A stretch of DNA of 64,000 bases from Aminicella lysinilytica (GTDB lineage: Bacteria > Bacillota > Clostridia > Peptostreptococcales > Anaerovoracaceae). This document shows, piece after piece, positions 51,964 to 55,943 of this stretch. Made by a program: the position numbers and the translations under genes. The notes beneath the pieces are model-generated. The model made no database searches. It was not told the DNA's origin and was given only the letters and a program-made list of their open reading frames with translations. The DNA lies in contig NZ_SNXO01000006.1 of the NCBI RefSeq assembly GCF_004362975.1, positions 1 to 64,000 of the forward strand, given 5' to 3'. Numbering within the stretch: the first letter of the stretch is position 1; the number at the start of each line of letters is the position of its first letter.

Positions 51964-54435
51964 TTACTTGACAACGTAATTTACAAGCTTCTCAGGAACC
52001 ACTATAGTCTTGACGATGTTCTTACCTTCTAACAACGCTTTGATCTCCAAGTTATCATTTACAGCCTTCTCTAAGGCTGCTCTATCCAAACCGCTTGGCA
52101 CATCCATCTTACCTTTGAGTTTTCCATTTACCTGAACTATGATCTCGATAGTATCCTGTACCAGTGCGCTATCATCATACTCAGGCCATGAAACATCTGC
52201 CAGGGAACCTTTGTGACCTAATTCCTGCCACATTTCCTCGCATATATGAGGCGTGAATGGATTCAATACTATCACCAGTTTATTGATAGCATCTGCAAGT
52301 AATGGTTGGTTGATATTCTTTAATTCCTTATACTTGTAAAGTTCATTTACCAATTCCATAATGGAGCTTATAGCCGTATTAAAGCTGAAGCGTCCGCTAA
52401 CATCATCGGTAATTTTCTTGATTGTCGTATTCAACATATAATTTAACTTCTTGTCGTCTTCACTTATCACTTCATATGTATCTTCCTTGACATCATACTT
52501 AGTAACAAATTCATAAACCAGACGCCATACTCTGTTGAGGAACCTGTAACTTCCTTCAACGCCTGCGTCTGACCAATCCAACTCCCTGTCGGGAGGTGCT
52601 GCGAACAAAATGAAAAGCCTGGCTGTGTCAGCTCCGTACTTTTCTATGATTTCCTCGGGGCTAACGACATTGCCCAGAGATTTACTCATTTTCTTTCCGT
52701 CTTTGTTTACCATTCCTTGTGTAAGCAGGTTCTGGAATGGTTCCTCGTCTCTAACCAGACCGAGATCATGTAAAGCCATCATAAAGAATCTGGAATACAT
52801 CAAATGAAGTATTGCATGCTCTACTCCACCGATATACTGGTCTACGCTCATCCAGTAATCAGTCTTTTTCTTATTGAACGCTTCTTTATCGTTCTTGGGA
52901 TCACAGTATCTGAGGAAGTACCATGATGAATCAAGGAAGGTATCCATTGTGTCCATCTCACGTCTGGCCTTCTTGCCACACCTTGGGCAAGTACATTCTG
53001 CAAATGTTTTAGAAGTAGTAAGCGGAGATTCTCCTTTACCTGTGAATTCAACATCTGTAGGCAGCATAACCGGAAGGTTCTCTATTTTCTCTGGAACCCA
53101 TCCACAGTCTTCGCATTCGATCATCGGGATCGGTGTGCCCCAATATCTCTGTCTCGAAATGAGCCAGTCACGAAGTTTATAATTAACTGTCTTTTGTCCT
53201 ATACCCTTTTCATCGAGCCAATCTATCATGGCAGAGATTGCCTTGCGATTGTTCATACCGTTGAATTGAGCTGAATTGATCATAGTTCCTTCTGCTGCGA
53301 AAGCGCACTTAAGGTCATTGACATCTATGTCAGGATCCTTGGAATCTACAACCGGTATTATGTCCAGATCGAATTTCTTAGCAAAATCAAAGTCTCTCTG
53401 GTCATGAGCAGGTACGGCCATAATAGCTCCTGTACCATATCCCATGAGAACGTAGTCTGAAATAAAAATCGGAACTTTTTTCTCGTTGACCGGATTTATG
53501 GCATATTTACCGATGAATACGCCTGTCTTTTCATTAGAAGTTGAAGTACGCTCGATTTCGTTCATATGCTGAACTTTTTCAAGATACTCCTTAACAGGTT
53601 TCTCGTATTCAGTACCCTTTACCAGTTCCATAACATAAGGGTGCTCCGGGGCCATTACCATATAGGTACAGCCAAAGAGTGTGTCCGCACGTGTGGTGAA
53701 GACACGCATCTCTTTATCAGTGCCGTCGATCTTGAAATCGATGTTGGCTCCGATAGATTTACCTATCCAGTTCTTCTGCATGGTCTTCACTTTGTTTGGC
53801 CATCCAGGTAATTTATCCAGGTTTTCAAGCAGCCTGTCTGCGTAATCCGTGATCTTGAAATACCACTGGGAAAGATTCTTCTTTCCAACAGGTGTATGAC
53901 AGCGTTCGCAGCAACCGTCAACTACCTGTTCATTTGCCAGCACCGTCTGACAGCTCGGGCACCAGTTCACCGGATTCTCTTTTTTATATGCAAGACCTTT
54001 ATTATAAAACTGGATAAAGATCCACTGCATCCACTTGTAATAGTCAGGGTTGCAAGTCTGCACTTCCCTGTCCCAGTCATAGGAAAGTCCCAGTGTTCTA
54101 AGCTGGTCTTCCATTTCATGGATATTGTCCCATGTCCATTTAGATGGCTCCACGCCATGTTTGATGGCAGCATTCTCTGCCGGTAGTCCAAAAGAGTCGA
54201 AACCCATCGGATGAAGTACGTTAAAGCCCTGCATTTTCTTGAATCTGGCAACTATATCACCTATGGAATAGTTTCTCACATGACCCATGTGAAGCTTACC
54301 CGAAGGATAAGGAAACATTTCCAACACATAGTATTTTTCTTTGGTCTCATCATCAAGAGTGTTAAAACTCTCATTGTCTTTCCAGTACTTCTGCCATTTG
54401 CTTTCAATCACCTTGTGATTATACTTTTCTTCCAT
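51964..54435 (-). CDS. leuS: Leucyl-tRNA synthetase
   Basis: LeuS charges tRNA-Leu. The 823-residue class I enzyme has the HIGH motif in [18 protein letters not shown] zinc-type [21 protein letters not shown] knuckle (written in part) follows, then the editing CP1 domain ([35 protein letters not shown]) and a second zinc cluster. [11 protein letters not shown] is the KMSKS loop. It lies 19 bases after rsfS and 9 before rnj. The leader is too short for a T-box. Confidence 0.97.
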
Positions 54436-54454: not shown

Positions 54455-55363
54455 TTACTCTATATCTAAAAAGTTGCAGTCTCCCCACACCTTTTCGATA
54501 TTATACTTCTCTCTCATTTCCTGGCTGAAAATATTAACTATTATGTCGCCATAGTCCATCAACATCCAACCGGAATTCTGTTTTCCTTCTATACTCTTCG
54601 GCAATATGCCGCTTTCTGCAAATTTATCTTCAACCGAGTCGGCCAGCGCTCCTACCTGTCTTTCTGAACCACCGCTGGCAATTATCAGATAGTCTGCGAA
54701 TGATGACTTCTCGGATACATCGATTATAGTGATATCTATGGCCTGCTTAGCGTCAAGTACATGAGCTGCTTCCATGGCCAGACTTTTATTGTCCATTACT
54801 TTCTCCTTTAAAATTTTCTCAAAATATTCCTTAGCGTGCAATGTGTCCTCGTCAAGGTAATTACCTTGATCCAAAACGTATTCGGCTGTTCTGGTCAGGG
54901 ACAAAAGGCAGGCTTTGTCTATGTCTTCGTCTGCGAGCTTTCTCAGTTCTTCGACACCGGGGTAATCTCGCCCCGGTTCAATGGCATCCGCTATGAAAAC
55001 TACTTTTTCCAGAGGAGACATTCCTGGCCTTCCTGTGGTATGAAAGCTGACGGCATTGAGTATGTCCTGATCTTTTATGTCGAAATCTCTCTCCATGATC
55101 AAAGCTGCGAGTTTGCCATGGGCCAGATTGGGATTATCTCTATATCTGTCAGGAAGCCCCAACTCGTCAATTTTTCTATTCAGTGTTTCCTTATCTACAC
55201 CGCGGAACATATCATGGTACAGAGCTGCAATTTCCGCTTTTTTCGGATCTGCTCCGTATTTTTCAGCAAGTCTGATAGCTGTAGTTCTCACACCTTCCGT
55301 GTGTACTCTCCGCTTTTCAGAGAAATGCTTTTCAATATATTCATTTATAGAGTCCGTGTTCAT
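54455..55363 (-). CDS. YqeK-RsfS fusion: HD-domain Ap4A hydrolase plus ribosome silencing factor
   Basis: A single 302-residue frame holds two normally separate neighbouring genes. Residues about 1-189 are YqeK: an HD phosphohydrolase ([25 protein letters not shown] with the HD pair, [25 protein letters not shown]) that cleaves Ap4A symmetrically. Residues about 190-302 are Rsf[29 protein letters not shown] and [15 protein letters not shown] (in part), which binds ribosomal protein uL14 and blocks subunit joining in starvation. At the junction the sequence reads AAAGGAG followed by an ATG (54796), an ideal start for free RsfS of 113 residues. I placed the start of the whole at the ATG at 55363 (AAAGG upstream), overlapping nadD by 23 bases. 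Fused, separate and both products are possible. Confidence 0.85.
54788..54809 (-). promoter_or_regulatory. Internal ribosome binding site and start for free RsfS
   Basis: On the minus strand AAAGGAG is followed by AAAGTA and the ATG at 54796, inside the fused frame. The spacing is what an independent rsfS gene would have. This suggests RsfS is also made on its own. Confidence 0.6.
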
Positions 55364-55943
55364 CGATATACCTTTCGATTCTCTGAGGAACATATTCGCC
55401 TATGGATCTGCCCTCCTTGATTGCTTCTTTTATTTCTGTTGAAGAAATATCCAGCATTCTGTTATGAAGGATCTTTACTTCTGCTCCATATTTCTCACTG
55501 TATTTATCAGCCTTGTATTCTACTACAGAAACATCGAACCTCGGTCTTGCTGCGACTGCAAAGGAATACTCCTCAAGAAGTTCATGTCCCTTGTACCAGC
55601 TTTCCAGGCTTACAAATGAATCCGTTCCCATCATAAACCAGATTTTAGTATCTTCCATTGATTTCTGAAGCAATTCCAGCGTTTTATATGTATAGGAAAC
55701 GCTGCTCCTGTCAGTTTCTATAGTAGATACTTCAAATTTCTCATCTTCCTGAGCGGCTAGACGAGTCATTGCAACTCTGTCCTTCTCACTAGCCATTTTT
55801 TTTCCTAGTTTAAATGGGCTTACCTTGGTAGGTATCAGAATCACTTTAGTCAGATTCAGTTCTTCTATGGCTGCTTCAGCTATAGACAGATGTCCCAAAT
55901 GGAATGGGTCAAAGCTGCCGCCTAAAATGCCTATTTCATTCAT
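55341..55943 (-). CDS. nadD: Nicotinate-nucleotide adenylyltransferase NadD
   Basis: NadD makes deamido-NAD from nicotinate mononucleotide and ATP. The 200-residue protein has the nucleotidyltransferase signature GILGGSFDPFHLGHLSIAE (about 4-22), a PTKVSPFK loop, FMMGTDSFVSLESWYKG and the late SSTEIKEAIKEGRS (ISSTxIR-type) motif. The order nadD-yqeK-rsfS is conserved in Firmicutes. It starts 2 bases after aspS. Confidence 0.94.
   Translation of the reverse strand: MNEIGILGGSFDPFHLGHLSIAEAAIEELNLTKVILIPTKVSPFKLGKKMASEKDRVAMTRLAAQEDEKFEVSTIETDRSSVSYTYKTLELLQKSMEDTKIWFMMGTDSFVSLESWYKGHELLEEYSFAVAARPRFDVSVVEYKADKYSEKYGAEVKILHNRMLDISSTEIKEAIKEGRSIGEYVPQRIERYIDEHGLYK

Follow-up and report, generated by a model that had tools for sequence, protein, structure and literature searches.

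Recurrent yqeK-rsfS fusions with a retained internal start in Aminicella lysinilytica and its family: candidate nested two-product genes

The 64,000-nt stretch of Aminicella lysinilytica DNA that we analysed (contig NZ_SNXO01000006.1, positions 1 to 64,000; the window in the following) encodes yqeK and rsfS as a single open reading frame (ORF), in which a Shine-Dalgarno (SD) sequence and an ATG are preserved at the border between the two domains. YqeK cleaves Ap4A, and RsfS blocks the joining of ribosomal subunits. We regard the locus as a nested two-product gene, the result of a lost stop codon or of small indels where genes are tightly packed, and we give this reading a probability of roughly 0.75. 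The features of the locus are the following.

54455..55363, minus strand: fused yqeK-rsfS ORF, 302 aa from the ATG at 55363 (302 codons and a stop)
54839..55330, minus strand: YqeK part (HD-domain symmetrical Np4N hydrolase, TIGR00488), residues 12-175
54485..54772, minus strand: RsfS part (TIGR00090 / PF02410), residues 198-293
54803..54809, minus strand: internal SD AAAGGAG, inside the fused coding sequence and 6 nt before the ATG, duplex energy -9.1 kcal/mol
54794..54796, minus strand: internal ATG, presumed start of free RsfS, at a position aligned across relatives
54455..54796, minus strand: presumed second product, free RsfS of 113 aa, as suggested by the internal start
55341..55943, minus strand: nadD (TIGR00482), overlapping the yqeK start by 23 nt
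51964..54435, minus strand: ORF of a leuS-like gene, 19 nt beyond the fused gene; we take it to be leuS from its sequence

Within the single ORF, residues 12-175 matched the YqeK model TIGR00488 at 139.7 bits (cut-off 70.15) and residues 198-293 matched the RsfS model TIGR00090 at 110.9 bits (cut-off 56.9). This bears out the proposal of a first-pass annotation, made from the letters of the window, that two adjacent genes had become joined in one frame. Its second observation, that the old rsfS ribosome site and start codon are intact at the junction, holds as well (AAAGGAG, six bases, ATG; junction sequence TTTTAAAGGAGAAAGTAATGGACAAT). The start of yqeK is ambiguous within 55341-55393, being either the ATG at 55363 or an in-frame ATG upstream of it at 55393, which gives a fused ORF of 312 aa. 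Since nadD ends at 55341 in a different frame from yqeK, the two are not joined in one frame here, and the NadD-YqeK model NF005519 scored below its cut-off (118.1 against 315 bits). The window genome contains one match in the genome search and one RsfS only. Of 118 family loci, 116 have a nadD match and 117 a same-strand leuS match; gene spacing is variable, and in a few split loci yqeK and rsfS lie farther apart.

The metal ligands of Streptococcus pyogenes YqeK are H29, H58, D59, H91, H117, and D135 (PMC11857287, excerpt), and they map onto H21, H50, D51, H82, H108, and D126 of the window fusion, a correspondence taken from the aligned ranges to PDB 8WMY (query 10-187, chain 18-196). All six are invariant in the 27 fused proteins that were aligned, of 52. 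The uL14 contacts of Staphylococcus aureus RsfS, Glu70, Asp81, and Tyr98 (PMC7125091, excerpt), map with a constant offset of 189 to E259, D270, and Y287, by equal-length aligned ranges (192-296 and 3-107) to 6SJ5/6SJ6; D270 and Y287 are invariant in the same 27 proteins and E259 is nearly so. The window fusion, modelled with AlphaFold2 (pLDDT 93, pTM 0.65), shows two confident domains, with a short gap between two helices (residues 189-191) and a relative domain placement that is uninformative. Taken separately, each predicted domain matches crystal structures of its family, YqeK or RsfS, the RsfS domain at TM scores by target of 0.87 (4WCW) and 0.88 (6SJ6). The fused form would presumably be active in both roles. 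A NadD-proofreading and a nucleotide-sanitising role have also been reported for YqeK, and the YqeK domain of a minimal-mycoplasma NadD fusion also hydrolyses wrong NadD products and 8-oxo-GTP (PMC9426524, excerpt), while late pre-50S particles also carry RsfS (PMC13246957, excerpt).

The SD energies were computed against an assumed anti-SD sequence, the 16S rRNA end of the window genome (GGATCACCTCCTTT), which is present in five of the six genomes tested and absent from G012. Motifs of the form AAGGAG-N4-9-ATG are common as such: the window contains 10 where 4.9 are expected, and at least 10 turned up in 4 of 100 shuffles. What exceeds chance is the position of the motif at the domain border and its recurrence there.

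We detected the fusion in nine of the 17 genomes of the window's genus; in the other eight a stop or a change of frame separates the genes. Across the family, 349 genomes were searched with a fused-protein profile and 336 gave a match; the junction DNA was read at 132 loci, 52 of them fused and 80 split. The fused loci span 23 of the 92 genera of the family, unread family genomes being counted as not fused where the matches listed held no stop-free full-length match, so that some fusions may have been missed. Splits in the same frame that showed as one match (for example in G009, G002, G094, and G096) were sorted from fusions by reading the DNA. Outside the family, where weak fused genes may be missed, there was no stop-free full-length match among the matches listed for 185 genomes from other families of the order, and at least one of 396 other genomes of a phylum sample (G847) had one among the matches listed. 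The G847 locus (L190), which belongs to another family, is a YqeK-RsfS fusion of its own. It carries GGAGG and, 21 nt before the aligned junction, an in-frame ATG; these were read by eye, the motif scan having begun at -18. An extra rsfS copy was found in none of the 46 fused genomes searched with PF02410 (46 of the 52 known; G126, G151, G265, G267, G269, and G275 were left out), each of which has one RsfS. The first-pass annotation had named two findings that would count against it, a sequencing error at the junction and relatives with a stop codon and only separate proteins. Split relatives do exist, eight of 17 in the genus, but fused ones occur alongside them, and neither objection applies. 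An error at the junction has a negligible probability: the window genome is a 91-contig assembly in which one wrong nucleotide could join the frames, but the fusion recurs in nine of 17 genus genomes and 52 of 132 family loci, including the single-contig assembly G118, and this recurrence across many assemblies rules out sequencing error as a general cause.

The distribution of fused and split loci requires many changes. On a tree of four genes (nadD, leuS, yqeK, and rsfS; 132 tips) the trait calls for no fewer than 22 changes, compared with a minimum of 31 and a mean of 40.5 in 50 label shuffles, and on a tree of nadD and leuS (131 tips) it needs 23, with a shuffled minimum of 35; these counts are approximate, coming from quick tree searches under a simple model with several weakly supported inner branches (seen on an earlier 118-tip tree). 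Each tree has 24 maximal fused clades, and the two sets are not identical. The direction of change lies outside the tree model, and some changes may be re-separations. One candidate is L009 (G009), in which a lone in-frame TGA, 24 nt ahead of the rsfS ATG, separates the two genes; it stands beside the fused sister pair L005/L007, and its split may be a re-separation.

The simplest route to fusion is visible at L035: the triplet immediately preceding the rsfS ATG is TTA there and TGA in the near relatives L045 and L046. In 50 of the 80 split loci yqeK stops within a span from 6 nt before to 60 nt after the rsfS start, and the rsfS SD therefore sits at or inside the end of yqeK. As a consequence, loss of the stop or a small indel would fuse the frames with the rsfS SD and ATG untouched. 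The other border of yqeK can be fused as well. Six loci (L046, L050, L051, L191, L193, and L196) encode NadD and YqeK in one frame with rsfS separate, and L081 (G257, L081:749-2215) encodes NadD, YqeK, and RsfS in one frame of 489 aa that retains AAGGAGG and ATG ahead of its RsfS part. Together, nadD-yqeK fusions occur in 7 of the 125 family loci with a nadD match. These nadD-yqeK and triple fusions argue that fusions can come from tight packing alone, and the repeated fusion of yqeK with rsfS can be explained equally well by tight gene packing.

A start codon (ATG, TTG, or GTG) is found at the aligned position, or up to 12 nt before it, in 45 of the 52 fused loci. An SD of -8 kcal/mol or stronger is present at 40 of the 52 fused junctions compared with 40 of 345 Met codons inside the same genes. 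The median SD energy is -9.4 kcal/mol in fused genes (n=45; span -12 to 0) and -9.3 kcal/mol at split rsfS genes (n=79; span -12 to +9), with P 0.57 after dropping the loci that have no nearby start codon (one split, seven fused); an earlier count of fused against split loci gave P 0.97. Folding of the mRNA is weak at the junctions (median -7.9, n=52) compared with internal Met codons (-15.2, n=337), in part a matter of base composition (GC 0.41 against 0.51). Two related genera (L069 in G135 and L184 in G151) have TTG as internal start with SD energies of -16.2 and -12.5; TTG makes up 15-18% of their Leu codons, so that retention of TTG on its own is weak evidence.

In a synonymous test, the amino acids were held fixed, codons were redrawn from local usage, and the SD was compared with the redrawn sequences. 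A first and stricter run (18 picks, one per clade, with ties counted against) gave 0.003 by Fisher's and 0.0008 by Stouffer's method. In a second run, based on clade medians with ties randomly split and covering 23 of the 24 clades (the clade without any start codon was dropped), 21 of the 23 fell below 0.5 (Fisher 5e-5, Stouffer 2e-6), and values at the 345 control sites were uniformly distributed (mean 0.500, 7% below 0.05). The window gene alone is not significant (P 0.096 and 0.076 in two calculations), and the six-member fused clade of its genus gave only P 0.04; among the nine fused species of that genus, L005, L006, and L007 have an SD weaker than -8. Across fused clades, then, the choice of SD codons exceeds what the amino acids require, which favours use of the internal start. 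The first-pass suggestion that the cell may make both a fused and a free RsfS stands in part: the comparative data favour continued use of the start in most of the fused lineages read, and the window gene by itself stays at P 0.076-0.096.

A recent fusion would give the same SD pattern by inheritance, and we therefore examined the deep fused clades. The four-gene tree has five fused clades deeper than 0.3. The start is kept in three of these, among them the six-member clade of the window's genus, where L006 has a weak SD; one (g17) has it in one of two members, and another, of seven genes, has lost it. The 11 start-bearing genes of the other four clades gave a Stouffer value of 9e-7 when members were taken as independent, and at most 2.4e-4 with any single clade omitted; this test is conditional on retention, genes without the start being excluded. 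Identical codons make up 0.35-0.57 in the deep clades against 0.34-0.46 expected at saturation, the members being not fully independent. As most of the remaining fused clades consist of one genome or have little depth, simple inheritance may account for part of the SD retention.

A usable internal start is missing from nine fused genes, which belong to three lineages. Seven of them (L057-L060, L062, L063, and L066) group in a supported clade that spans three genera, and L080 and L185 stand apart. Seven of the nine have no start codon at the position, and L059 and L060 have GTG with a weak SD. Their junctions fold like ordinary coding sequence (median -17.1, compared with -6.8 in the other 43 fused genes) at a GC of 0.51 against 0.41. 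A search with PF02410 found no other RsfS in these nine genomes, whose completeness ranges from 59 to 99 percent, and we infer from this that the fused protein can serve as RsfS.

These observations fit together if substitution of a stop codon, or a small indel, joined the frames and left the rsfS SD and ATG as before. Ribosomes reading through yqeK would then make the YqeK-RsfS fusion, an obligatory product because no stop lies between the domains, and ribosomes entering at AAAGGAG/ATG would make the free RsfS of 113 aa. We infer that both are made in the window cell. In most fused lineages the internal start would have been retained, most likely through selection for free RsfS, and in the three lineages without it the fused protein alone would act as RsfS. 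It is rather unlikely that the fused protein is the sole product of such genes and that the SD and ATG are relics of an unfused ancestor that have not yet decayed. The lineages without the site do suggest that free RsfS is not needed everywhere, the window gene alone reaches only P 0.076-0.096, a third of the fused species of its genus have a weak SD, and many of the fused clades have little depth or consist of one genome. Relics would hardly account, however, for SD codons kept beyond the needs of the protein in clades near synonymous saturation, and a strong SD should initiate unless hidden, whereas the junction is weakly structured. That the SD-like stretch serves as a translational pause, giving YqeK time to fold before RsfS is made, would suit its location at the domain border, but we consider this very improbable: a start codon stays near the SD in 45 of the 52 fused genes, and among the first 44 fused loci the SD was -8 or stronger in none of the six without a start codon compared with 33 of the 38 with one (related rows, not independent).

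A further reading, compatible with two products, is that the fusion was selected because it couples the breakdown of Ap4A, or of another nucleotide, to silencing of the 50S subunit. Alarmone breakdown may conceivably be linked to ribosome hibernation, as the first-pass annotation suggested. Selection for coupling would agree with the repeated fusion of the same pair (at least 22-23 changes) and with the conserved functional residues in both halves. We nevertheless hold such selection to be unlikely, as yqeK is also fused to nadD (7 of 125 loci, once together with rsfS), which would be expected were close packing the driver, and most fused lineages appear to retain a free RsfS.

Neither the two domains nor the gene cluster is new, and internal in-frame starts are known as well. 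The window protein shares the HD fold and the six metal-binding residues of YqeK, the COG1713 symmetrical Np4N hydrolase (TIGR00488; PDB 8WMY, 2O08, and 3CCG), and differs from known YqeK in carrying RsfS at its C-terminus. Likewise, it shares the fold and the uL14-contact residues of RsfS, also called YbeB or Iojap (TIGR00090; PDB 6SJ6), which here is the C-terminal part of a larger protein and probably occurs free too. The NadD-YqeK fusion of mycoplasmas (NF005519; PMC9426524, excerpt) is likewise a fusion within the same gene cluster, but it joins the other border of yqeK and does not include RsfS. The nadD-yqeK-lytR-rsfS cluster of Negativicutes and other Firmicutes represents the same neighbourhood with separate genes, and the excerpt of PMC7549365 describes no YqeK-RsfS fusion for these clusters. 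In cas8b, as in our proposal, an internal start in one gene yields the C-terminal part as a second protein, Cas11b (PMC11899642, excerpt); that second product was shown experimentally, whereas here the putative second product is RsfS, in an arrangement that fusion created many times. Among the papers listed by a literature search that covered titles and the beginnings of abstracts, with few subscription journals, none describes a YqeK-RsfS fusion or a kept internal start in one.

The family offers a replicated natural experiment, in which the two genes occur separate, fused with an internal start, and fused without one. This makes testable whether cells need free RsfS, whether the 50S subunit tolerates an N-terminal partner of 190 residues on RsfS, and how often a bacterial gene annotated as a fusion conceals another protein with an internal start; annotated as one frame, the window locus would give a single protein. 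A more tentative idea is that tethering itself pays, in that the fusion would hold a nucleotide hydrolase next to uL14 on the 50S subunit and the internal start would set the ratio of tethered to free RsfS. If so, the family would form a natural series that starts with separate genes, passes through two-product genes and ends with genes making the fusion alone, and this series would show the evolution of an adjustable connection between nucleotide stress and ribosome silencing.
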